This document shows positions 15,042 through 25,330 of a stretch of DNA of 64,000 nt, in pieces (the stretch's first letter is position 1; every line of letters begins with the position of its first letter). This DNA comes from Frigidibacter sp. SD6-1. Its GTDB lineage: Bacteria; Pseudomonadota; Alphaproteobacteria; Rhodobacterales; Rhodobacteraceae. Location of the stretch: positions 1-64,000 of the forward strand of contig NZ_JARJNR010000012.1 in the NCBI RefSeq assembly GCF_030143255.1, in the 5' to 3' direction. Position numbers and translations under genes: made by a program. Under the pieces are notes generated by a model. That model had not been told where the DNA came from. It made no database searches and saw nothing but the letters and a program-made list of their open reading frames with translations.

Positions 15042-15116
15042 TCCGGCGTAGCTCAGCGGTAGAGCAGTTGACTGTTAATCAATTGGTCGTAGGTTCGATC
15101 CCTACCGCCGGAGCCA
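15042..15116 (+). tRNA. tRNA-Asn (anticodon GTT)
   Basis: A complete 75-base tRNA including encoded CCA. Acceptor strands are TCCGGCG (15042-15048) and CGCCGGA (15106-15112), followed by a G discriminator and CCA. The D arm contains AGCTCAGCGGTAGAGC, the anticodon loop is CTGTTAA with GTT at 34-36, and the T arm has GGTTCGATCCC. The 3' portion from the anticodon loop onward is duplicated at 25283-25330, marking it as the integration site of the element. Confidence 0.97.
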
Positions 15117-15118
15117 AT
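15071..15118 (+). repeat. attL: 48-bp direct repeat in the tRNA-Asn gene
   Basis: Identical over 48 bases to 25283-25330. It begins in the anticodon loop (ACTGTTAATC) and runs through the tRNA 3' end (GCCGGAGCCAAT). The bases just outside differ on both sides. This is the attachment core regenerated by integration, so the tRNA stays functional. Confidence 0.95.
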
Positions 15119-15280
15119 TAAACCAATAAAAGCAGCTACTTACCGAGACCGCCACTGGCGGTCTTTGTAGTTCTAGAACTACCTAGCAACCAATTAGCAA
15201 GCAAACGCGGTTGCTCGGTTTCGCTGTCCGAGCCAGCGTGCTAAATTTCAGCACCCTCATTTCGATTCAGTGGCTTGCTC

Positions 15281-16057
15281 ATGAAGTTCGTTCCTCCCTC
15301 CGTCAAAGAGACCGCCTTCAACTGCCCGCACTGCGGTGTTCTGGCATCCCAATACTGGCATTCACTTCATGCGGACCCTCGTGGGCGGAACGGCCTACCA
15401 GAAGTGATTGACGACGACAAACTCAAGGAGCTGGCGTCGGGCCCTTTCAAGGACGAGAAAGAACGGGAACAGAAGTTGCGCTTCATTGAGCGATTACGGA
15501 CCGCCCGGCCCTTCCTTACCCCCTTTCAAGTCAGACGGGATTACGATCTGAAGAATGCTTGGTGCAGCAGGTGCCACAACTGCGACGAAGTCAGTCTTTG
15601 GATAACAGATCAAATGATCTATCCTCAGATCGGTGATGCACCGTTGGCCAATCCCGACATGCCCCCGGATATCCGCAACGATTATGATGAGGCCAGTAAC
15701 ATCCTCGGCCAATCGCCCCGAGGCGCGGCAGCTCTTATTAGGCTCTGCATCCAAAAGCTCTGTAAGCACCTTGGTCAACCGGGCAAGAGCATTAACGATG
15801 ACATCAAGGAACTTGTCGCGGGAGGGCTTGACCCGCGCATACAGAAGGCTTTGGACGTGGTCCGCGTGGTAGGAAACCACGCAGTTCACCCCGGCCAAAT
15901 CGAACTCAAGGATGACAGAGCGACCGCGGAAAGCCTCTTCCGGTTGCTCAACTTGATCGTGGAAAAGATGATCTCCGAACCCAAACACGTTGATGAGGTC
16001 TACGCGGCGCTCCCGGAGGAAGCACGCAAAGCGATTGAGAAGCGCGACGGTAAGTAA
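15281..16057 (+). CDS. DUF4145 domain-containing protein
   Basis: A 258-residue soluble protein with the DUF4145 plan. A zinc-ribbon-like CPHC (residues 16-19) pairs with WCSRCHNC (about 94-101), then comes a helical C-terminal domain with the signature SPRGAAALIRLCIQKLCKHLG and VVRVVGNHAVHPGQIE. DUF4145 often occurs beside or fused to restriction and other defence nucleases, so an accessory defence role is possible but not shown. ATG 15281 is chosen over TTG 15275. It is the only gene between attL and the minus-strand operon, a classic cargo position. Confidence 0.78.
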   Translation: MKFVPPSVKETAFNCPHCGVLASQYWHSLHADPRGRNGLPEVIDDDKLKELASGPFKDEKEREQKLRFIERLRTARPFLTPFQVRRDYDLKNAWCSRCHNCDEVSLWITDQMIYPQIGDAPLANPDMPPDIRNDYDEASNILGQSPRGAAALIRLCIQKLCKHLGQPGKSINDDIKELVAGGLDPRIQKALDVVRVVGNHAVHPGQIELKDDRATAESLFRLLNLIVEKMISEPKHVDEVYAALPEEARKAIEKRDGK

Positions 16058-16175
16058 GGCGCCCCCACAACCCATGCCGCGAGGGCGCCTGTCGGTTCGG
16101 GCAGCGAAGGAGCACCGCCGCCGACTGGTCCCGATGGTTTAGCGTCCGTCGGTTTCCTCAAGGACGTGCAGGTGG

Positions 16176-16553
16176 CTAGCCTGCGCCGCCGCGTGCCACT
16201 CCGGCGCGGCGGTCAGTGGGTTGCTTGCATCCGTGACAGAGGCGGATCGCTGTCACGTCAGTGCTCCAAAACGGCGATCCGCAGCGTAGGCAGACCCGCC
16301 AGCCGACACGACGAACCACACGGGGCGGCGACTGGTCATGGTCCAGAACCGGCTCCCGCCGCACCCCGCCATCCCATGCCCAAGCCTCCGAGGGCGGTTC
16401 CTCGAACCCCTGCCAGTATAGTCCGCCGCGCGTCTTCTCGGGCGCGGTGGACACGGGTGCAGGCTTCGTGGTGCGCTTTGGTGCGGGTTTCGGGATCGTC
16501 GCTGTGGGGTTCGAGGCTCGCCACGCGACCAGCCAGTCGGGCTGCTCGGTCAT
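16176..16553 (-). CDS. Small zinc-finger-like element protein
   Basis: A 125-residue protein with a proline/lysine-rich, probably disordered first half and a C-terminal C-x2-C...C-x2-C unit (CLRCGSPFWSTD, then LCHGCKQ) likely to bind zinc. The start MTEQPDW at 16553 overlaps the stop of the upstream gene (ATGA), so it is translationally coupled and is the last gene of the 17862-to-16176 operon. I recognise no family. Role unknown. Confidence 0.6.
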   Translation of the reverse strand: MTEQPDWLVAWRASNPTATIPKPAPKRTTKPAPVSTAPEKTRGGLYWQGFEEPPSEAWAWDGGVRREPVLDHDQSPPRVVRRVGWRVCLRCGSPFWSTDVTAIRLCHGCKQPTDRRAGVARGGAG

Positions 16554-16792
16554 CGGGTCCACACCCGGTTCCCGCCGCGCCGCCACTGCGCCCATGTACC
16601 GTCCCGCTCCCAGCGGGCGAGGCAGTCAATCGGAAAGTCCTTCGCTAGCTTGCCCGCCTCCATCTCGGCGCGGCACTCAGCCTCGAACTGCTCGAACGTC
16701 CCGTAGATTGCTGCGAACGGCGAGAGCTGCGCGGCGGTGCGGTCCCGTTCCAGCTTTCGGACGCGGGCAAGGAGCGATTGCGTGCTGGGCAT
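16550..16792 (-). CDS. Small hypothetical element protein
   Basis: An 80-residue protein, MPSTQSLLARVRKLERDR... An N-terminal amphipathic helix (about 5-20) could be a short coiled coil. The middle is acidic (EQFEAECRAEMEAGKLAKD) and the end is Trp/Arg-rich. It is separated from the upstream gene by 4 bases and overlaps the downstream gene by 4. Proteins of this look are common near phage terminase genes, but this is only a resemblance. Confidence 0.6.
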   Translation of the reverse strand: MPSTQSLLARVRKLERDRTAAQLSPFAAIYGTFEQFEAECRAEMEAGKLAKDFPIDCLARWERDGTWAQWRRGGNRVWTR

Positions 16793-16796
16793 GTGG

Positions 16797-17090
16797 TCAC
16801 CCCGCGCCTCCCGCCGCTCTCAATGCCGCCCCCAGCTCCCGCAGCCCTGCCAGTGCGCGGTCGCGCGATGCGAGCCGCGCCCGTGCGGCTCGCATCGCGC
16901 GCAGCCCCAGCAGGCGTTGTTCCGAGGGGGTCACCGTGTTGTCGGGATCGTCGCGCATAGTCTCGCGGCGGAAGAACCGCCCCGAGTGGAAGCTGAGGCC
17001 GGTGTGGTCATCTTCGCTGGCCTGCGCCCGGTGCGGTTCGGGGTCAGCGGCCCGTGCCGGGGATAACCACATCGCAGCGCGGGCGTTCAT
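16797..17090 (-). CDS. Small hypothetical element protein
   Basis: A 97-residue protein starting MNARAAMWLSPARAADPEP at 17090. The start overlaps the upstream stop by 4 bases (ATGA), so translation is coupled. The longer frame to 17234 would overlap the upstream gene deeply and is rejected. The C-terminal half (TPSEQRLLGLRAMRAARARLASRDRALAGLRELGAAL, given here only as a landmark region near 52-90) is Arg/Ala/Leu-rich and probably helical. No family recognised. Confidence 0.5.
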   Translation of the reverse strand: MNARAAMWLSPARAADPEPHRAQASEDDHTGLSFHSGRFFRRETMRDDPDNTVTPSEQRLLGLRAMRAARARLASRDRALAGLRELGAALRAAGGAG

Positions 17091-17404
17091 TGGTAACGCC
17101 CCTCGTAGGCGGCGATTGCCGTCTCGCGAACGTCTTGGGGCAGCTCGCCCCAAAGCTCCGTCAGCGATGCCTTGTTCCGCTCGACGTACTCCTTCGCGGT
17201 GATAGGCAAGAGGGTGACCGGATGGTGCTGCCACGTCGCAATCTTCTTGGCGAACGCCAGCACCTCATCGTAGCGCCTCAGCGGCACCGTGTGCAGATCG
17301 CTCGACCCGGCGGGCGTGCCAATGATGACGACCACAAACCGATCTGCGGGTGTCGGTTCGTAGGCGACGACCATGCCGCCGTTCTCAACGTGATGGACCG
17401 GCAT
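17087..17404 (-). CDS. Hypothetical element protein
   Basis: A 105-residue protein. It opens MPVHHVENGGMVVAYEP and has a beta-rich start (DRFVVVIIGTPAG) followed by helices ending in ELPQDVRETAIAAYEGRYQ. It starts inside the stop of the DUF5681 gene (1-base overlap) and its own stop overlaps the next start. I recognise no family. It belongs to the same coupled operon. Confidence 0.6.
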   Translation of the reverse strand: MPVHHVENGGMVVAYEPTPADRFVVVIIGTPAGSSDLHTVPLRRYDEVLAFAKKIATWQHHPVTLLPITAKEYVERNKASLTELWGELPQDVRETAIAAYEGRYQ

Positions 17405-17862
17405 CAGTTCACCTCCCGCGCTTCCAGCGCGATAATCCGCTGTTCCAGTTCCTCGTCCTTCCGGATCGAGGAAAGGGAGCCGATGGCGTTGATAATCATC
17501 TGCCCCACATCCGGCGGCACCTGACCGGATGCCACCGCCGCCAGCACCTGCTCGACCTGCTTGCCGATGGGCAGCTCGGGGTCAAAGTCGAACTCGACAG
17601 TCTGTGTCTGGCTGCGGAGCGTGGGCGCGATGCGGGCGAGGACAAGCCCCGCCGCCTGCATGTCCCCTGCCAGTGCGGCCTCGATCACCTTCTCCGCGAC
17701 AGCCAACCCATCATCGCGCAGGGCGGCTTGCACCCGCTGCCGCTTATCCGGGACGCCCTTCGGACGTCCGGCAGGGTTGCCGCTGACACCTTTCTGAAAG
17801 CGTCCGCTGCGTGTGTTGGGCACGTAGCCCTGCATCCACTCGGGCTGTGTCTGATCGGTCAT
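17404..17862 (-). CDS. DUF5681 domain-containing protein
   Basis: A 152-residue protein whose N terminus has GRFQKGVSGNPAGRPKGVPDK at about 20-40, the hallmark of DUF5681. The FxKGxSGNPxGRP motif occurs in proteins usually encoded next to phage terminases or on integrated elements. A helical C-terminal region ends in RKDEELEQRIIALEAREVN, a likely coiled coil. First gene of the coupled 17862-to-16176 operon, 37 bases after the stop of the 245-residue gene. The DUF5681 context suggests a DNA-packaging-related role; no large terminase is present. Confidence 0.75.
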   Translation of the reverse strand: MTDQTQPEWMQGYVPNTRSGRFQKGVSGNPAGRPKGVPDKRQRVQAALRDDGLAVAEKVIEAALAGDMQAAGLVLARIAPTLRSQTQTVEFDFDPELPIGKQVEQVLAAVASGQVPPDVGQMIINAIGSLSSIRKDEELEQRIIALEAREVN

Positions 17863-17899
17863 GGGGGCTTCCTGATCTCAACAGTTGGCGCGCAGCGGG

Positions 17900-18637
17900 T
17901 CAGGCGTGCTTCGCATAGACCGCAGCGGACTTGTCGCGCTTGGCGCGGATCGCCTCGGGACCGTCGGTGCGGATCACGTGCCCGGTGCGGGCATCGGTGA
18001 CGGGCAAGCCGCCCACGGCCTTGACCGCCTCGGCCAGCACCTTGCCGCCGTGGTTCTCGAGGTAGGTCTTGGCGGAGCGCAGGGCACGCAGGCGCTGTGC
18101 GATGACGGGCTGGCGCGCGGTGTGGTACTCGACCAGAAGCACGCGGTGAATTTCAGGCGTCAGACCGGACAGCATCGGCGGCGCCCCCAGCGCACTGGCG
18201 GCAACCTCGTCGTCGCCGTCCGCGATTGCCTTTCTCACAAGGTCGATGCGGTTGGGGCTGGCTTTCAGGTGCGCCCGAACCTCGGTGCTGATGACCTCGC
18301 CCGCCTTCTGCTTCACCGGGGCGGCCAGATCGCGCTCGTACGAACCGATGGTCTTCTCGAACTGCGCCACGGCGCTGTCGATCTTGCTGGTCACCCCCGC
18401 CAGCTTCGCCCGTGCGTGGTCATCGGTTTTCAGCAACGCCGCTTCCGGGGTCAGCGTCGGGTCCGCGAAGGCCGCAGCCCGCAGGTCGTGGATGCCGGAC
18501 AGGTAGCCATAGGCTGCGTCCAGTGCCTCGGTGGCGCTCGCCACCAGCGGGGCGGTCTCGTCGGTGTACCCGTCGAGGTTGGCGATGTTGGCGCTGTGAA
18601 GCGCGGGTGAAATTCGGGTGTCGATTTGGTCGGCCAT
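17900..18637 (-). CDS. Helical hypothetical element protein (245 aa)
   Basis: Begins MADQIDTRISPALHSANIAN and is predicted almost wholly helical, with charged heptad-like stretches around 65-115. It has no cysteines, signal peptide or catalytic motif I can name. It heads the rightmost part of the minus-strand block and is followed after 37 bases by DUF5681, so cotranscription is likely. Size and composition would fit a scaffold, minor structural or DNA-binding role, but that is a guess. Confidence 0.6.
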   Translation of the reverse strand: MADQIDTRISPALHSANIANLDGYTDETAPLVASATEALDAAYGYLSGIHDLRAAAFADPTLTPEAALLKTDDHARAKLAGVTSKIDSAVAQFEKTIGSYERDLAAPVKQKAGEVISTEVRAHLKASPNRIDLVRKAIADGDDEVAASALGAPPMLSGLTPEIHRVLLVEYHTARQPVIAQRLRALRSAKTYLENHGGKVLAEAVKAVGGLPVTDARTGHVIRTDGPEAIRAKRDKSAAVYAKHA

Positions 18638-18977
18638 GGTGTGGGAAACCCTGATGTGGCTTGCTGTTGCATGGCTACACTAGCTGTTAACCCCCGGGCG
18701 GTCTCCTGATATTTGTTTTAGATCAATGCGTTACGTCTAGTCGTCCCATTGATTGTCAATCTTTGGCATGGGCACCTCGCGCACCCTGCATGGGGCGGGA
18801 CCGCGCAGCCGCGCGTACAGCGCGCGCTACAGCGGGGGTTTGCTGGGGCGCTACCCTGGCACCCCAAAGCCGCGCTCACCCCCTACAGCGCGCGCTGCGG
18901 TGCGGCAGGGGTGCGAAAGCAAACGGGGCGCTACCCTGCGGCAGCGCCCCGGTGCGGGACAGGTGGTGGAGCCGGGG
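18638..18977. other. 340-bp intergenic region with repeats and hairpins
   Basis: No gene seen. It holds an 11-bp perfect palindrome GATTG-T-CAATC at 18751-18761. Its minus-strand reading includes TTGACA, a possible -35 for the 245-residue gene. Two identical 14-mers GGGGCGCTACCCTG lie at 18845-18858 and 18925-18938, 80 bases apart, with GCGCGCGCTACAGCG-like strings between. Confidence 0.6.
18924..18951 (-). terminator. Terminator of the SAP-like gene
   Basis: A 9-bp stem CGGGGCGCT / AGCGCCCCG with a 10-base loop. Read on the minus strand it is followed by TTTGCTTT, and it begins 27 bases after the stop at 18978. Confidence 0.65.
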
Positions 18978-19331
18978 CTACGCGGCGATGAACTGCTTCC
19001 AGCGGTAGAACTGGACGTTCAGGGTGCCCGCCGCCCATCCCCGCTCGGCTGCGACTGCCTTCGCCTCCTTGAGCGTCGGTGCCTTGCCGGTCTCGGCGAG
19101 CATCCCGTCCAGCGCGGTCCACACCGCATCGAGCTTGCCCCCGGCACGCGGGCGGATGATGCCGTTGTTCTCGACCTTGACCTTGATCGGGGCGGGTTGC
19201 TCGTCGGTGTGGGTAACCACACCCGTCAGCGCGGCGCGCATTCCGTCATTGTCGAGGTTGGCGTAGCTGATCCCCGCTTCCTTGCACGCGGCGCGGAGCT
19301 GGGTCTTGTTCATCGTGGCATAGTCGGTCAT
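18978..19331 (-). CDS. SAP/Rho-N-like small DNA-binding protein (putative)
   Basis: A 117-residue protein. The first 35 residues (MNKTQLRAACKEAGISYANLDNDGMRAAL is the landmark) have the helix-turn-helix spacing of SAP or Rho-N-like nucleic-acid-binding domains. A second conserved block near 70-115 (KAPTLKEAKAVAAERGW, then LNVQFYRWKQFIAA) is common in phage-encoded proteins. ATG 19331 is chosen over 19355. It is divergent from the nuclease-like gene. Function is inferred from fold resemblance only. Confidence 0.6.
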   Translation of the reverse strand: MTDYATMNKTQLRAACKEAGISYANLDNDGMRAALTGVVTHTDEQPAPIKVKVENNGIIRPRAGGKLDAVWTALDGMLAETGKAPTLKEAKAVAAERGWAAGTLNVQFYRWKQFIAA

Positions 19332-19481
19332 CGGTGGTTCCTTTTCTGTTCTCACCTACGACCTGCATCACATCAGCCGTCGCGCCTGTCTCCGGCGAAA
19401 ATGCATCCATGCCCCGCTTGCGCCTCACGCCTGACACCGTTCATGTTCACCCTCTCGAACAATTCGCCGAAAGCCAGCAGC

Positions 19482-19919
19482 ATGGACGTAAAGAAACCCC
19501 GACCACAATTGACCGGCAATGCCGGGCTGAATTACGCCTCGTGGCAACTCTCGCGGCGGGGCTGGCACGTCATGCCGACCATTCGCAATGCCCGAGGATC
19601 GGACCTAATCGCCACCAACGACGACGAAACGGTTTTCCTCGGCATTCAGTCCAAAGCGCTAAGCAAGCGCTCGGCGGTCCCCCTCGGGCAGCACATCAAC
19701 AACCTGCGTTCGGATTGGTGGATCATTACGATCCACGCCAACAGCGACAACCCGGTTTGCTTTATCCTCCGGTTGGAAGAGGTGCGGTCGCTGGCGGGGC
19801 AGGACCGGAACGGTGGCGCGTGGTGGCTGGAACCAAAGAACTACGACAAGCCTGAGTTTCGTGAGGCGTGGGACCGCCTCACGAACCCCATTTCGCCGAT
19901 AGCCACACCCGGGAGCTAG
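19482..19919 (+). CDS. PD-(D/E)XK nuclease-like protein (putative)
   Basis: A 145-residue protein from ATG 19482 (ATG 19443 would add 13 residues; neither has a good ribosome site). After NYASWQLSRRGWHVMPTIRN it has the pattern of a PD-(D/E)XK core: Asp in RGSDLIATNDDE, then a strand FLGIQSKAL where Q-x-K replaces E-x-K. WWIITIHAN and a terminal helix follow. Small single-domain proteins of this layout include resolvases, restriction-type nucleases and catalytically changed relatives. It is one of only two plus-strand genes in the element and may be cargo. Activity unproven. Confidence 0.6.
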   Translation: MDVKKPRPQLTGNAGLNYASWQLSRRGWHVMPTIRNARGSDLIATNDDETVFLGIQSKALSKRSAVPLGQHINNLRSDWWIITIHANSDNPVCFILRLEEVRSLAGQDRNGGAWWLEPKNYDKPEFREAWDRLTNPISPIATPGS

Positions 19920-19924
19920 CGGCG

Positions 19925-20590
19925 CTACCCCATCTTCAGGGGACCAAACATCCCTGACTGCACCATCGCCATGTAGATGTTCTTCATCGCAATGGCGGTG
20001 TCCTGTTCCACGAACAGCGACGACCTAGCCCCGTGAGGTACGCCAAGAAGGTAGGGGCGCATGGTCTCCCAAGATTCCGCCCTTTCCGCCCACCGCCAAC
20101 ACGGCAGCTCCTGCTCAAGCATGAGCGGCACCGCAAGCGACTTCGGAACCATCTTGCCGGGGTTGAGGGGCTGCGACCATTCACAGCGCACCAGAACCGG
20201 GGTGGTCCCGTCTGCGTAGAACGGAATGTCAACCTGCTCGGCGGTGATGGTCGCGCACGGGTGGCTGGGCAGCGCCTCCACCGCCTCAATCACCCTGTCG
20301 GGGTTACCGTAGGGGCAGGTGATAAAGCCGTGGGCGAAGTGCCTCGTGTGGTCGAGTCCCTCATACCCGCAGCGTTCGTTCGGGTTCGTTTCGGGATGCC
20401 GCCCATCATGGTTCACAACAAGCGGGTGCCAGGTCGGGTAGGCGTCCACCACGGGACCGCACTTGTCTACGATGTCGAGCAGCGCTTCTTCTGCGCGCTG
20501 ACGGTCGGGACCGGACAGGTGCCTGCCCAACAGGTACGACTTGACCCTCTCGTAGCCACCGGCTGCGTCTTCTTCTGCACGAAATGCCAT
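19925..20590 (-). CDS. Hypothetical element protein (221 aa)
   Basis: Starts at ATG 20590, where GGAG lies 6 bases upstream; frames extending to 20758 have no such site. Landmarks are YERVKSYLLGRHLSGPD, NERCGYEGLDHTRHFAHGFITCP, and an Asp/Trp-rich middle (VLVRCEWSQPLNPGKMVPK). The several His and Cys around 85-110 could bind a metal. I recognise no family. Directly upstream (20600-20672) are repeated ACGCATG motifs that look like operators. Confidence 0.6.
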   Translation of the reverse strand: MAFRAEEDAAGGYERVKSYLLGRHLSGPDRQRAEEALLDIVDKCGPVVDAYPTWHPLVVNHDGRHPETNPNERCGYEGLDHTRHFAHGFITCPYGNPDRVIEAVEALPSHPCATITAEQVDIPFYADGTTPVLVRCEWSQPLNPGKMVPKSLAVPLMLEQELPCWRWAERAESWETMRPYLLGVPHGARSSLFVEQDTAIAMKNIYMAMVQSGMFGPLKMG

Positions 20591-20614
20591 GTTTGACTCC
20601 ATACGACATGCTTC

Positions 20615-20672
20615 ACGCATGAATTTATCACGGTACGCATGAAATTCAAGTATCGTGCGCAACATGCGTTCA
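20615..20672. promoter_or_regulatory. Repeated ACGCATG operator-like sites
   Basis: ACGCATGAA occurs at 20615-20623 and 20635-20643, exactly 20 bases apart (two helical turns). An inverted copy AACATGCGTTCA lies at 20661-20672. They sit just upstream of the 20590 start. Confidence 0.4.
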
Positions 20673-20851
20673 CCACGCACGGCGCGGCGCTCATCGCTGC
20701 GATGGCTCCCCAGCTGGATGCTACGGAAGGTTTGGATGACCACACCGGCAACGGACACAACGGGTTAGGTGCCCCGTGCCGTTGATACCCGGTCAAGTGG
20801 ACGACCATTACACGGACGCAAATAACCGCGTAATGCAGGTAGTTGTAACTG

Positions 20852-21005
20852 CCACCCCTATATGCAAATCCGAGTTACAACACTAACAACACTAACAACA
20901 CACCAAATGTTAGCGCTAACTGTTTACTATTCGTTTTGGACGAACAGCAATTTCAGATGTTAGTGTTGTAAGTGTTGTTATCCCAATTTGCATAGGGGGG
21001 GTGGG
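20852..21005. other. Candidate replication origin: iterons in a long inverted repeat
   Basis: AT-rich DNA inside a GC-rich element. The left arm (20852-20898) and right arm (20958-21005) are imperfect inverted repeats sharing CCACCCC, TATGCAAAT and the repeat block. The left block is three tandem 9-mers (ACAACACTA, ACAACACTA, ACAACACAC at 20877-20903); the right block has two inverted copies at 20961-20978. Between them is a TTAGCGCTAA palindrome. It lies directly downstream of the RepA-like gene's stop. Confidence 0.6.
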
Positions 21006-21021
21006 ATTACAACACCCCGCG

Positions 21022-22479
21022 TCAGTTCGTTTCCTCGGCCTTAATCGGGCGGTACAGGGTGAGGTTCTTTGCCCCTGTGGTCAGCTCGACTTTATGGACA
21101 AATTCGAATTGACGCAGGTCCATATCGACCTTCGCCCATTGCGCCCGGTTCACCTTCACGTCCGGCAACTGGCACTCGACCTGCTCACGGGTAATGAACG
21201 GTTCGCTGCCCGCGTGGACCATCTCGACCAGCTTGTTCCGAACAATGTCCGCCACGGTGAGCTTGCGACGGTCCTCGAAGCCTTCACCCTCCTTCGGCAC
21301 TGTGGTTGCCTCCTGCCACAGCTCCTCCATCGCGCGCCTGCCCCACACAACCGCCCCCGGCTCGACCTTCACCAGCACCGTGTCGGGACCATCCTTGCGC
21401 TCGTACAGCACATGCACCGGCGCGGTCTTGTACGACAGCCCGAACCAGACGAGGTTGGTTTTAGCAACGACCGCGACGTATTCATTTTCTTCCCGAAGGT
21501 CTTGCGCGTGCAGGAATGACAAGCGCGGGCTGTTCACCCACGCCGTTGCCCCCATCACCGAATCCGCGAGGTATTCATGCTTCCCCTTGTTGGCGTGTCC
21601 GATCACGGCAATCGTCAGGTTGTGCCGCTCCGCAATCCCTTGGAGGTAGGCCATCAGCTTCTTGACGCCCTCATCGCTGTTCGGTCCCGCCTGCCGCTCC
21701 CATGTGGTCAGCCCGACCGCCGTGTCCAGCACCACCAACCGCAGCGATTGCACCCCCGCGTGGGCGGGCAGGTTCTCGATGCGCACGGCAGCGGCAATGA
21801 TCGCCGGTTCCAGGTGCTCGTATACGTTGAAGGTCGAGCCAACCGTGCGCCCTTGGTGATCCTGCTTCACGGCGACCGCCTTCACGACCTGAAGCGTCCC
21901 GTCCCCGCCGCCGGCCTTCGTGTGGCGCACCTTGATCCAGTCCGTCAATTCCTCGCAACTGATCCAGAGGGTGGAGGCGAAGCCGCTGATGTGAGCAGCC
22001 ATACTCGCGACGAAGGACGACTTTGCGCTGGACCCTCGTCCGTAGAAGCCGACAACGCACCGCTCAGGCAGATACGGGTCCAGAAGGTAGCGAAGCGTGA
22101 TCTTGGCGGTATCGCTGGACATAGCAAACTCCAATTCGATGCTGTTCGGGTCGGCCTGCGGCGGGAGTCTGGTCTGTGCGCCCTGCTTCATCCCCTCGCG
22201 CCGCGTCCGTTCTTCCTCCTGCTTGAGCTTCAGTTCTTCGCCCTTCGTAAATTCCTCTTGCAGCTTCTTGGCTTCGGCCATTCGGTCCCGCTCAGCCTCA
22301 GCTTTGCGCGCCTCAAATTCCGTTTTCCGGGTCTGAGGGTCCATTGCCGCTCTTTCTTCATGTTCGGCGCGCAGATGTTCCGGGGCGATTGACGCAAGGA
22401 ACCGATCTTCCTCAGGCGTGGTCTCACGCACCGCGAACCAATCAAGCGCTTTACCATCGGCTTTGGAATTGTCAGCCAC
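21022..22479 (-). CDS. RepA-like AAA/RecA-fold ATPase
   Basis: A 485-residue protein starting GTG with GGAGGT upstream. An acidic/basic coiled coil (about 45-100) precedes a RecA-fold ATPase (about 125-330): Walker A-like GFYGRGSSAKSS (144-155), Walker B LVVLDTA and sensor-like IAVIGHANKG. It resembles the AAA_25/RepA hexameric helicase family of plasmids and P4-like elements. The glycine normally before the Walker A lysine is alanine here. A C-terminal winged-helix-like region (about 390-470) may bind DNA. Adjacent to the iteron region, so probably the replication protein. Confidence 0.78.
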   Translation of the reverse strand: MADNSKADGKALDWFAVRETTPEEDRFLASIAPEHLRAEHEERAAMDPQTRKTEFEARKAEAERDRMAEAKKLQEEFTKGEELKLKQEEERTRREGMKQGAQTRLPPQADPNSIELEFAMSSDTAKITLRYLLDPYLPERCVVGFYGRGSSAKSSFVASMAAHISGFASTLWISCEELTDWIKVRHTKAGGGDGTLQVVKAVAVKQDHQGRTVGSTFNVYEHLEPAIIAAAVRIENLPAHAGVQSLRLVVLDTAVGLTTWERQAGPNSDEGVKKLMAYLQGIAERHNLTIAVIGHANKGKHEYLADSVMGATAWVNSPRLSFLHAQDLREENEYVAVVAKTNLVWFGLSYKTAPVHVLYERKDGPDTVLVKVEPGAVVWGRRAMEELWQEATTVPKEGEGFEDRRKLTVADIVRNKLVEMVHAGSEPFITREQVECQLPDVKVNRAQWAKVDMDLRQFEFVHKVELTTGAKNLTLYRPIKAEETN

Positions 22480-22608
22480 GGCGCACCTCCGCCGCGCGAA
22501 TGCACGAATTGGGTTTACGCCTGTAATTGAAGCGCTGGCCGTGCAGCGCGGTATCGGGTAGGTTTCCCATTGTGCTTGTCTCGCTATGCAAGGTGGGATT
22601 GCGTTGCT

Positions 22609-22646
22609 ATCGCCCGGGAGCTGGTCACTTCCGGGCGATTTTATTG
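22609..22646 (+). terminator. Hairpin with T-tract between repA-like and AlpA-like genes
   Basis: A 9-bp stem ATCGCCCGG / CCGGGCGAT (22609-22617 and 22631-22639) is followed by TTTATT on the plus strand. It would block plus-strand read-through into this block; the flanking genes run on the minus strand. Confidence 0.45.
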
Positions 22647-22700
22647 GCGGCGCTTACTGCGGACTTGCTGCGGGCGGCTCGTGTCCAAATTCGGCAGCAA

Positions 22701-23030
22701 TTACCTGCCCCCGCCATTGATGGACCGTAAAGCGTTCGCGGAATACTCGCTGGTACTCCCGGCGCTATGCTGTTCGATCCACTCAAGAACATCACCGAGC
22801 CGGTAGCGCACGGGCGATTGGGCAGTCGGACCAAGTTTGATGAAGCGCGGTCCCTTGGACTTGAATCTCCATATCTCGAGAGAATTGTTCCGAATGCCGA
22901 GCAGCTCGGCGGTCTCTTGGGAGGTGAGAAGTTTGTTGGGATCGGGCGCGCGATATGTCGCGGTCTCGGTCGGCGGAATAGAAGCCGCACGGTTCCCGTT
23001 GATCCACGGAGGCGTAATGGTGTCAGACAT
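22701..23030 (-). CDS. AlpA/MerR-like helix-turn-helix regulator
   Basis: A 109-residue protein starting MSDTITPPW at 23030 (AGGA upstream). The core LLTSQETAELLGIRNNSLEIW, then GPRFIKLG and VRYRLGDVLEWIEQH, is the winged HTH of AlpA/excisionase-type proteins. These act as excision factors or activators of integrase and replication genes in P4-like elements. Position between the integrase side and the RepA-like gene fits this role. Confidence 0.78.
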   Translation of the reverse strand: MSDTITPPWINGNRAASIPPTETATYRAPDPNKLLTSQETAELLGIRNNSLEIWRFKSKGPRFIKLGPTAQSPVRYRLGDVLEWIEQHSAGSTSEYSANALRSINGGGR

Positions 23031-23364
23031 ACTAGCGGTCCTATGGGGATCGGGTTCCCGCCTGTGAGCCATGTCACTCAGACGTAGCCGCGTCCCCATG
23101 GACCGCAATTTTTCGCCCAAACCACTTGGCTCAATGCCGAGAGCGCTTCCTCAGCGCGGCAGTAAGGGCAGGCCTTGGGAAGCTACAATAAGCTGCTTAA
23201 TTCTAGCAAGCGAAATATTGCACGCGTTCTGCGGGTAAATGCGGTTGCACGGCCACCCCCCAAAAAACGCGCGTACAGCGCTGAGAGCGCGGGGCCACTG
23301 GTAGGGTAGCGGCCCACCCCGCACCCCCGCTGCCGCGCGGGAAAACGGGGTGTACGGGGTGCTA
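23031..23364. other. 334-bp intergenic region, no gene seen
   Basis: Contains the AlpA-like gene's upstream region with a 9-bp palindrome AAGCTGCTT at 23190-23198 in AT-rich DNA. A GC-rich tail follows with GGGTAGCGGC (an inverted CGCTACCC repeat) near 23303-23312 and CCCCCCAAAAAACGCGCG-like runs near 23255-23272. Nothing coding is supported. Confidence 0.5.
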
Positions 23365-23598
23365 TTAGCGCTGGGGTAGCGGCACCACATTGCTGCGGGC
23401 CGATCCCGTTTCACGTTCCCATTTTTCGAGGTGAGCGACCAACGACTGTTGGACAGCAAATTGGAGGTCGCGCAAGGACACGCGCGGGCGGTCAGGGTCG
23501 CAGCAATCGGAGTAAGTGTTTTTATCAACTTCGCAAGCGGCGTAGTCCAAAACTGAAAGAGCCTCTTCGATACTGATGCGAATACCGAGATCGGTCAT
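23365..23598 (-). CDS. Small acidic hypothetical protein
   Basis: A 77-residue protein, MTDLGIRISIEEALSVLDYA..., ending NVVPLPQR. It is helical and acidic with two cysteines (CCDPDRP). GGGATGACC lies before the ATG at 23598; an alternative ATG is at 23607. It lies between the AlpA-like gene and the integrase. No family recognised. Confidence 0.5.
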   Translation of the reverse strand: MTDLGIRISIEEALSVLDYAACEVDKNTYSDCCDPDRPRVSLRDLQFAVQQSLVAHLEKWERETGSARSNVVPLPQR

Positions 23599-23789
23599 TG
23601 TGGTCATCCCATTTGGATGCAGCCGTCTGCATTGCAGACGGCTAGCGGGTTGTGATGTGATTAGAACCCGCCATTGACCCATGTCCTGCATGGCGCGCCG
23701 TTAGAAAGAATCACAAAAGAACAGCGCGAGCAAGTGTTATTCCTGCCCGCGCTTTCAACAGTCGGTTTTTGAGCTATGGACGATGTTGG

Positions 23790-25130
23790 TCAGGCGGTAG
23801 CCCCGAGCTGCACCACGTTCTTCCCCGCTGCGACCGCCGCCTTCTGTTCGATCCAGCCGCCGATTTGTTCAATCTCGGGGTGCAGCCAGCGCAGGTCGGT
23901 CAGGTCAAGATACGCGCGGCTGGTCACGTCCTCTTGGGCAGGCTTGTGACCGATCAACAAATCGGTGCGGAATTTCTCGATGCGCAGCTCGCGCTGCGAG
24001 ATGTTGGAAAGCGTCTTGCGCAGCCCGTGCGCTCCGACGATGCGCCCAGCCAGCCTGTCCACTTCAGCCAACACCGTGCGCGGGTCGGTGATATGCCCAT
24101 CCTTGCCCCGGCTGGGGAACACATGGTCGTTCCCCTCCACCCGCTTGCAAGCATCAAGGATGGCAATGGTGGCGGAGGACAACGGCAACATGATCGGCTT
24201 GCCCTGCTTCCGGTCCCCGAGGAACCAATACGACCTGGCGGGGCCTTCGCGGTCGATGTGAACGTCAGTCCACAGCAGCTTGGACGCCTCGCCCCTGCGG
24301 CAACCTGTGGTGAGCAGGAACATCACGAAATTCACCCCGGCCAACACATCACGGTTGCGAGCGGTCTCGCGCGCGGCGAGCAGCATGTTCCAGACCGCAC
24401 CCACCTTGTCGAAAGGGACATAACGGTCGGTGCGGTCGCCCAGCGTTGCCCAGTGCCGCTTCATCGCACCGACGGGGTTGACCGGGATCAGCGGGCTACC
24501 GTCCGCAAGCTGGTGTTCGTCGGCGGCGTAGTTCAGGATGATGCGCAGGACCACCATCGCCGAGTTGGCGCTGGCCGGTGCCCCGCCCTTCCGCTTCTTC
24601 CCCTTCAACCCGCCGCGTACCAGTTCCGCGTGCCGCTCGCGCACCATGTCGCGGGTGATGCTGACCACAGGCTTGTCTGCCCAGTCCTTGAAGGTCTTGT
24701 CGATGAAGAAGCGATACCAGTCTTTCGTGCTCTCCTTCAGCTTGCCCGGCCTGCCAAGGTAGCTGTCGAACACGTCCTTGAGCGTGATGCCTTCCAGCTC
24801 CTGCTTCTTCTTCGCGGCTTCCTCCTGCGCCTTCTTCTCCGCTTCCACGGCGCGCGGGTCGATACCCCGGCTCATTGCCAGCACCAACTCCCGCGCCTCG
24901 TCCCGTGCGCGCTCGACTGTCAGCGGACCATAGGCGCCCACCGTGATCCGCACTGCGGCGCTGGCACCGCCCTTGATGCGGCGCTGCACGATGAAGATGC
25001 GCTTGCCCTTGGGGGTCACCTTTAAGCCGAACCCGGCAATGTCGGTGTCCCAAAAGAAGGCGTCTTGGTTGCTAGCAACCACCTTGTCGACGAAGGTCTT
25101 GGTGAGTTTGACGGTTGTTCTGTCGGACAT
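23790..25130 (-). CDS. P4-type tyrosine recombinase (integrase)
   Basis: A 446-residue integrase with an N-terminal DUF4102 arm-binding domain (TDIAGFGLKVTPKGKRIFIVQ), a central SAM-like core-binding domain (about 130-230), and a catalytic domain with Arg in TTGCRRGEASKLLW, HGLRKTL (His-x-x-Arg) and the nucleophile Tyr in TSRAYLDL. Start 25130 is supported by GGGGATT. It ends an element whose attR lies 150 bases from its start codon, the usual arrangement for tRNA-targeting P4-like integrases. It is expected to recombine the tRNA-Asn 3' end. Confidence 0.93.
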   Translation of the reverse strand: MSDRTTVKLTKTFVDKVVASNQDAFFWDTDIAGFGLKVTPKGKRIFIVQRRIKGGASAAVRITVGAYGPLTVERARDEARELVLAMSRGIDPRAVEAEKKAQEEAAKKKQELEGITLKDVFDSYLGRPGKLKESTKDWYRFFIDKTFKDWADKPVVSITRDMVRERHAELVRGGLKGKKRKGGAPASANSAMVVLRIILNYAADEHQLADGSPLIPVNPVGAMKRHWATLGDRTDRYVPFDKVGAVWNMLLAARETARNRDVLAGVNFVMFLLTTGCRRGEASKLLWTDVHIDREGPARSYWFLGDRKQGKPIMLPLSSATIAILDACKRVEGNDHVFPSRGKDGHITDPRTVLAEVDRLAGRIVGAHGLRKTLSNISQRELRIEKFRTDLLIGHKPAQEDVTSRAYLDLTDLRWLHPEIEQIGGWIEQKAAVAAGKNVVQLGATA

Positions 25131-25282
25131 AGCAAAATCCCCAGCAAGCAAATAGCAAACGGTTGCGGTACGGCTGCATAAAGCTACGCTCGGGCAGGTT
25201 AGTCAGTCAAGTATCTGATTTTGCTACAAAAATAAAGCTACACCGGGGTTATGCAAAGCTGCGTAAAGGTGCGCGGCTCGAT

Positions 25283-25330
25283 ACTGTTAATCAATTGGTC
25301 GTAGGTTCGATCCCTACCGCCGGAGCCAAT
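25283..25330 (+). repeat. attR: 48-bp direct repeat of the tRNA-Asn 3' part
   Basis: Exact copy of 15071-15118, without the 5' part of the tRNA, so it is not a functional tRNA gene. It marks the right boundary of the element. Confidence 0.95.

Follow-up and report, generated by a model that had tools for sequence, protein, structure and literature searches.

A probable phage satellite at a tRNA-Asn gene of Frigidibacter sp. SD6-1 and a family of elements sharing its orf245-DUF5681 gene pair

Ends and gene content of the element

The stretch of DNA analysed here, referred to as the window, comprises 64,000 nucleotides of Frigidibacter sp. SD6-1 (contig NZ_JARJNR010000012.1) and carries an integrated element that begins within a tRNA-Asn gene and ends beyond an integrase gene. 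The intact tRNA-Asn (GTT) gene at the left (15042-15116, forward strand), recognised by both ARAGORN and Rfam, is the insertion target, and its 3' part recurs exactly at the far end of the element. The resulting 48-bp direct repeats, at 15071-15118 on the tRNA side and 25283-25330 on the integrase side, lie 10,212 bp apart from start to start. An exact repeat of this length is far beyond chance expectation, and 24 other members of the family described below have equivalent tRNA-derived repeats. A preliminary description of the window had noted these repeats and the intact tRNA, and both were confirmed by the repeat and tRNA searches.

We scanned the 14 proteins of the element against Pfam (E up to 0.1) and PHROGs (E up to 1). 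The right-end gene, previously read as an integrase, does encode a tyrosine integrase (23790-25151, reverse strand), with matches to Arm-DNA-bind_3 (1.5e-12) and Phage_integrase (2.8e-6); this arm domain marks P4-type integrases. Inward from it, likewise on the reverse strand, follow orf108 (23365-23691), which is specific to this element and has no relative in the other 47 loci, a gene for an AlpA-like helix-turn-helix regulator or excisionase (22701-23120; HTH_17 at 1.4e-4, below the Pfam cut-off, and PHROG 66 at 7e-6), and rep, encoding a replication ATPase/helicase of AAA_25 type (21022-22479; Pfam 4.3e-9). Directly behind rep, an inverted repeat (20835-20897 and 20958-21020) contains repeated ACAACACT/TAACAACA. 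This region (20835-21020), in which direct and inverted TAACAAC-type iterons surround an AT-rich spacer, is the element's densest region of 8-mer repeats, and we propose it as a putative replication origin.

Further towards the tRNA lie orf277 (19925-20758, reverse strand), a cargo gene whose single relative in the other loci is in locus L075, and, in a first cargo slot, a nuclease-like open reading frame (ORF; 19485-19919, forward strand). The nuclease-like label had been given earlier; it stands as far as a motif seen by eye that we take to be PD-(D/E)xK-like, and it found no backing in Pfam, which gave no match for the longer ORF containing 19485-19919. The accessory gene orf125 (18978-19346, reverse strand) matches PHROG 21588, a group of phage proteins of unknown function. 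It is followed by a block of core genes, all on the reverse strand: orf245 (17900-18637), a DUF5681 gene (17404-17862; Pfam 3.7e-13, PHROG 9747 at 2e-11), the functionally unassigned orf105 (17087-17404), orf97 (16797-17090) and orf80 (16550-16792), and a Zn-ORF with CxxC pairs recognised by eye (16176-16553). Neither orf245 nor the small core ORFs match any named profile among those searched. Next to the tRNA, in a second cargo slot, a gene on the forward strand (15275-16057) encodes a DUF4145 protein (Pfam 7.7e-16; PHROG 1305 at 5.6e-34). It matches the PADLOC model of the anti-phage family PD-T7-4 at 4.7e-85, with the best stretch at residues 88-259, which sharpens its earlier description as DUF4145 cargo.

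The replication ATPase, AlpA-like, DUF5681 and DUF4145 genes were all found where the preliminary description had placed them. Its statement that the element lacks structural genes was borne out as well, as none of the 14 proteins matched a capsid, portal, large terminase (TerL), phage-tail or relaxase profile in Pfam or PHROGs. One refinement is that DUF5681, judged by its position in phages, is a packaging-type gene.

A family of related elements

Searching with the window integrase led to a first sister element in an IMG/VR contig (L005), whose integrase is 98% identical. The sister starts at the same tRNA-Asn attachment sequence and shares the AlpA, orf125 (95% identical), orf245, DUF5681, orf105, orf97, orf80 and Zn genes, whereas its Rep, iterons and cargo are all different from those of the window element. 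Of 394 genomes of the host's family, nine, among them the host itself, matched an orf245 profile, and a single peptide pattern, which gives a lower bound, located orf245 at no fewer than 40 loci in a genome-contig collection of 84,980 species; two viral contigs carry it, one of them that of L005. In total, orf245 gave access to 47 distinct loci spread over the Alpha-, Beta- and Gammaproteobacteria, mostly in Alphaproteobacteria, with named hosts in Thioclava, Aliiroseovarius, Sinirhodobacter, Gemmobacter, Sphingobium, Rhizobium, Magnetospirillum, Azoarcus, Zoogloea, Ectothiorhodospira and Porticoccus. A family locus on one 3.2-kb contig of an Acidobacteria metagenome-assembled genome (MAG) may be misbinned. 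Because L005 and L047 represent one Frigidibacter oleivorans element, our 48 oriented loci correspond to 47 distinct ones, and only L047 is counted among the 25 complete elements; the duplicates L042, L044, L045, L072 and L073 were left out.

The recurrent gene order is int, AlpA, rep with iterons, a variable cargo slot, orf245, DUF5681, orf105, orf97, orf80, Zn-ORF, a second variable cargo slot and the tRNA. A tRNA was in view at 41 loci, and 25 of these have a matching integrase-side repeat, which is the entry condition for the complete elements; the repeat cut-off of 21 was chosen after inspecting the list. The remaining 23 of the 48 loci comprise seven with no tRNA in view, 15 with a tRNA and no repeat found (some cut by contig or locus ends) and L064, with a 14-bp repeat only. 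The tRNA listing covers 38 loci, and the search considered opposite-strand tRNAs downstream of orf245 only, so that the orientation is partly by construction. Twenty-four complete elements measure 7,979-10,953 bp and one 16,405 bp (median 9,205), and their targets are tRNA genes for Asn, Pro, Ser, Arg, Met and Thr. All 25 contain int, DUF5681 and orf245, the last being the search key; AlpA and rep are present in 24 each, orf105 and orf80 in 23 each, and orf97 and the Zn-ORF in 15 each. The 16.4-kb member, L026, has extra genes, three of which were tested and had no PADLOC match. Damage was seen at some loci: orf245 is split in L068, L076 and L077, L023 has a short DUF5681 gene, and at several loci no int was in view.

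Structural or conjugation genes, whose presence in full in related copies would by the preliminary description have refuted its reading, are absent from the conserved core of the related loci; the variable genes were profile-scanned in part, with 46 sequences from the small ORFs and cargo compared with PHROGs and 10 with PADLOC. These 10 cargo proteins came from six elements, and four had matches: PD-T7-4 (window), RT class VI (L028) and PDC-M34A (L022) strongly, and PDC-M28B weakly (the ParA-like protein of L025). Relatives of the nuclease-like ORF occur in 8 of the 48 loci, the window included, and in either slot. The elements group differently in phylogenetic trees built from orf245 (44 rows), int (29 rows) and DUF5681 (43 rows); L024 and L041, for example, are sisters in the DUF5681 tree and belong to different orf245 clades. 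This discordance indicates that modules have been exchanged between elements.

We also compared the surroundings of the insertion sites. The left flank of the window element, including the tRNA, is conserved in relatives. Its right flank, from the LysR gene onward, was absent from 19 relatives' loci, each covering about 1.5 kb past the match and not all with a tRNA, and of 20 other genomes queried with this flank, 8 gave matches, all of them short and partial; as synteny does not extend to the right flank, it is uninformative about an empty site. The segment 25331-27420, not seen beside tRNA-Asn in relatives, may itself have been acquired or rearranged. Lone exact 48-bp copies of the attachment sequence, at G006:C22:249-296 (about 14.7 kb from the full tRNA) and G002:C44:2958-3005, suggest other islands at the tRNA-Asn site. 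In Thioclava marina (L020, 2303-3428), the repeat on the integrase side has immediately to its left a piece of a Zn-ORF and pieces of DUF4145 from a second related element, which suggests that insertion at a single tRNA happened more than once. In Sphingobium terrigena (L053, 3249-4022), pieces of orf80 and of a Zn-ORF from another copy stand left of the attachment repeat, a probable tandem insertion.

Replication module, DUF5681 and orf245

The eight Reps that we scanned occupy one fixed place in the elements and are of four types: AAA_25, PriCT_2 with AAA_25, DUF5906 and DUF3987. Repeats were densest in the stretch behind rep at 22 of 36 loci (21 of 35 if L005 and L047 are counted once), and repeat coverage there reached at least 30 in 18 of 36 (17 of 35 with these two as one). 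All three repW loci, namely the window, Sphingobium terrigena (L053) and a Pseudomonadales MAG (L061), have TAACAAC/TAACACC in direct and inverted orientation. The motif CGTAGC is found in all three rep19-type loci and TCT[CT]TG in all four rep24-type loci, and among the repA_big types AACGCACC occurs in L005/L047 and L043, and ACACTGTG in L020, L039 and L062. Rep families are therefore exchanged together with their own iterons, although not in all groups; in the families that show it, the iteron motif tracks the Rep family, as predicted for an initiator with its own origin. Used as a query, the window Rep found no relative among the plasmids, the phages or the viral and genome contigs, and none in 100 relatives; tblastn against 72,556 plasmid records and a comparison with PDB sequences gave no match, and of 389 other genomes of the order three gave partial matches.

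Among 50,697 phage records, 420 match the DUF5681 protein of the window, and most of the matches listed align at about residues 55-147. We examined seven annotated records among the best 15 of the 420, and in all seven the DUF5681 homologue precedes TerL; for three, this order holds when the linear record is read across its ends. The homologue overlaps a gene annotated as terminase large subunit or terminase-like in Vibrio phages 1.039.O and 1.276.O and in Salmonella phage seszw, and in Streptomyces phage SF3 it is followed by a gene with matches to terminase large subunit profiles. DUF5681 stands at the record end and the terminase at the record start in Vibrio phage 199E37-1, Escherichia phage ZCEC08 and Pseudomonas phage Torfinnsbu, with an HNH gene between the two in ZCEC08; adjacency in these three assumes circularly permuted records. 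PHROG 9747, of unknown function, is matched by four tested phage proteins as well as by the window protein. The place directly before TerL is the classical position of a small terminase. Given this position and the homology to phage genes, we propose that DUF5681 is a small-terminase-like (TerS) protein of the element. In the accessible part of one study, a DUF5681 protein is named among the structural proteins of Salmonella phage STGO-35-1 (PMC8954984).

In addition, we surveyed the context of DUF5681 in 61 genomes, the host included, which gave 18 matches in 13 genomes. Four of these loci, two of them in a single genome, are immediately followed by a TerL-like ORF, and three belong to the orf245-DUF5681 family, the window's own included. 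One of three TerL-like neighbours compared with Pfam (L114) matched a terminase model.

The orf245 product is predicted by AlphaFold2 to form a bundle of long helices (mean pLDDT 92.4). A fold search returned only helical bundles, with a best Z of 9.7 that is possibly meaningless for helical models, and tblastn found no match in 50,697 phage or 72,556 plasmid records at E 0.1. Its constant place beside DUF5681 suggests that orf245 is perhaps a packaging or morphogenesis partner.

The element as a candidate phage satellite

The preliminary description had named P4/PICI-like satellites and integrated plasmids as bearers of such gene content and had read the element as a satellite or an episomally replicating island that could hijack a helper phage. 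The satellite reading was strengthened by the position of DUF5681 before TerL in phages, by the joint exchange of Rep and iterons, by the anti-phage genes in some of the cargo, and also by the size and gene order that recur across the family; the integrated plasmid gained no support, with no relaxase profile among the window proteins scanned and no tblastn match of the window Rep in 72,556 plasmid records. We consider it probable that the element is a phage satellite working like a phage-inducible chromosomal island (PICI) while belonging to a separate family. A fuller version, which we put forward tentatively and rate at slightly under an even chance, would see the orf245-DUF5681 pair as the signature of a new satellite family in Alpha-, Beta- and Gammaproteobacteria, in which DUF5681 is a private TerS redirecting the helper's TerL, orf245 a new all-helical redirector of capsid size or packaging, and the replicon (Rep with cognate iterons) and defence cargo exchangeable cassettes.

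Under this model, the integrase inserts the element into the 3' end of tRNA-Asn with restoration of the tRNA, a step that the anatomy of the ends displays. Upon action of a helper phage, AlpA may trigger excision, as AlpA of other islands of this kind (PICIs and the minimalist PICMIs) suggests. Rep would then open the iteron origin immediately behind rep and amplify the circle, a presumed function with which the Rep/iteron pairing seen in several families agrees. DUF5681 might act as a private small terminase that brings the helper's large terminase to the element's DNA, as its homology and position point to, and orf245, perhaps with orf105, orf97, orf80 and the Zn-ORF, may fit capsid assembly or packaging to a genome of about 9 kb. 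Particles would carry the element to new cells, where the anti-phage cargo could protect the new host.

Several results weigh against this interpretation. Eleven of the 18 surveyed DUF5681 loci, two of which are overlapping views of one place, have neither TerL nor the family within about 1.5 kb. Genes upstream of DUF5681 in relatives were ParB_N plus N6/N4-methylase genes in all seven cases tested (L113, L116-L119, L127 and L128; in L113 a TerL-like ORF comes next), and the DUF5681 proteins of relatives' prophages match the family's DUF5681 profile weakly, with E-values of about 1e-5 to 1e-8 for those adjacent to TerL. The DUF5681 model is all-helical (mean pLDDT 81.8) and had no solved-structure match at E 0.001 and no informative one; a single BFVD match (1.8e-4) has no named function, and the absence of known TerS folds from the fold-match lists shown excludes nothing. 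Likewise, orf245 had no BFVD match at E 0.001 and no informative fold match. Iterons behind rep are weak or absent in many loci; six of eight rep28-type loci have none, and those of L048 and L058 are weak. Six of the ten tested cargo proteins had no PADLOC match, and a clean empty site was not found in the relatives' loci or with the right-flank query.

The search for a helper also counts on this side. In the host, no resident helper was seen in a search for phrog_2 TerL, one among several TerL families; the only such gene lies 11 kb upstream of a GTA_TIM gene and is for that reason assigned to a gene-transfer-agent cluster. The helper of the window element is either not resident or was missed. 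In favour of a satellite, the sister element in F. oleivorans directly adjoins a prophage that encodes TerS (phrog_426), TerL, a portal, a protease, a major head protein, a tape measure and a tail fibre. This prophage is only a candidate helper, because its TerS belongs to another family and its attachment site was not seen. Within it, a 335-residue ORF with a GTA TIM-barrel domain (L005, 5889-6896) is apparently a piece of a gene-transfer-agent-type tail gene, and a 709-residue protein beside the prophage attachment site (L005, 7519-9648), with a weak DUF6538 match (4.4e-5, below cut-off), is possibly the prophage integrase.

Two alternatives appear improbable, and about equally so. The first is an integrative mobilizable element or integrated small plasmid, maintained as a plasmid-like circle by Rep and iterons and moved by a conjugative helper via an origin of transfer (oriT). 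Rep with iterons is indeed plasmid-like, and L025 has the ParA-like gene mentioned above, yet the relaxase profile is absent from the window proteins, neither the window Rep nor orf245 has a tblastn match in the 72,556 plasmid records, and a small-terminase-type gene is present in every complete element. The second is a passive defence island that integrates site-specifically, carries anti-phage cargo and spreads by general or jumbo-phage transduction without encoding packaging functions, in the manner of the I55-type islands in the accessible text of PMC12595487. The anti-phage cargo, the absence of capsid genes and the lack of a visible helper in the host would suit such an island; the narrow size range, the conserved small core genes including DUF5681 and the iteron origin beside rep in many members speak against it. 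Very unlikely is a decaying prophage remnant in which early genes and a TerS gene were retained and the morphogenesis genes lost, for although int, AlpA, rep and the TerS-type gene are phage-like and some loci are damaged, the same gene set and size recur in mostly open frames across three proteobacterial classes and orf245 matches none of the 50,697 phage records.

The best-described phage satellites are those of enterobacteria, Vibrio and Gram-positive cocci. Among the matches listed in the open-access literature searched, we found no description of an orf245-DUF5681 family, which is apparently undescribed so far. If the satellite interpretation holds, it would add a sequence-defined satellite family in Alphaproteobacteria and beyond, searchable by its two-gene marker. 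A small-terminase function would be proposed for part of the DUF5681/PHROG 9747 family, the elements would offer a natural replicon-swap series in which Rep and iterons change together, and they would illustrate a possible way for anti-phage genes such as PD-T7-4 to arrive in these hosts.

Among known systems, P4-like satellites have a P4-type integrase arm, an AlpA/Vis-like protein, a tRNA-type site, defence cargo and a size of about 10 kb, features that the window element shares. It differs in that its replication gene is exchangeable. P4 has the packaging and decoration genes psu, sid and delta; Pfam and PHROG scans, in which the presence of the corresponding models was not checked, gave no match to these proteins among the window proteins. 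The PD-T7-4 system (accessible part of PMC9519451) and the window protein share one PADLOC model, and the window copy is cargo of a satellite-like element near its tRNA end.

Phage-inducible chromosomal minimalist islands (PICMIs) are represented by PICMI115, with 6.1 kb and six genes downstream of fis in Vibrionaceae, in the accessible text of PMC10803314, where the word 'terminase' has 0 occurrences. Int, alpA, a replication gene and the lack of a known capsid-remodelling gene are common to both groups as far as that text describes them, and its DUF3987 and DUF5906 primase families are the Rep of some relatives here. The present family differs in its tRNA sites, its size of about 9 kb and its DUF5681 and orf245 genes; the window element itself lies at tRNA-Asn instead of fis, and its Rep is of AAA_25 and not of DUF3987 or DUF5906 type.

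Finally, Gram-negative PICIs have int at one end, an AlpA regulator, a replication gene with an origin, terS in some cases and accessory phage-resistance genes, according to the accessible part of PMC6092414, and a mean size of 9.5 kb is given for PICIs in that of PMC10803314. The window element has both an integrase with a specific attachment site and an AlpA-type regulator between int and rep, and its family resembles PICIs in the terminal int, AlpA, replication gene, resistance cargo and size of about 9 kb, with a putative origin behind rep in many members and a proposed TerS-type gene. It is set apart, by comparison of descriptions and not of gene-by-gene homology, by a TerS candidate of DUF5681/PHROG 9747 type, by orf245 as its hallmark, by tRNA 3' sites and by a distribution mostly in Alphaproteobacteria.

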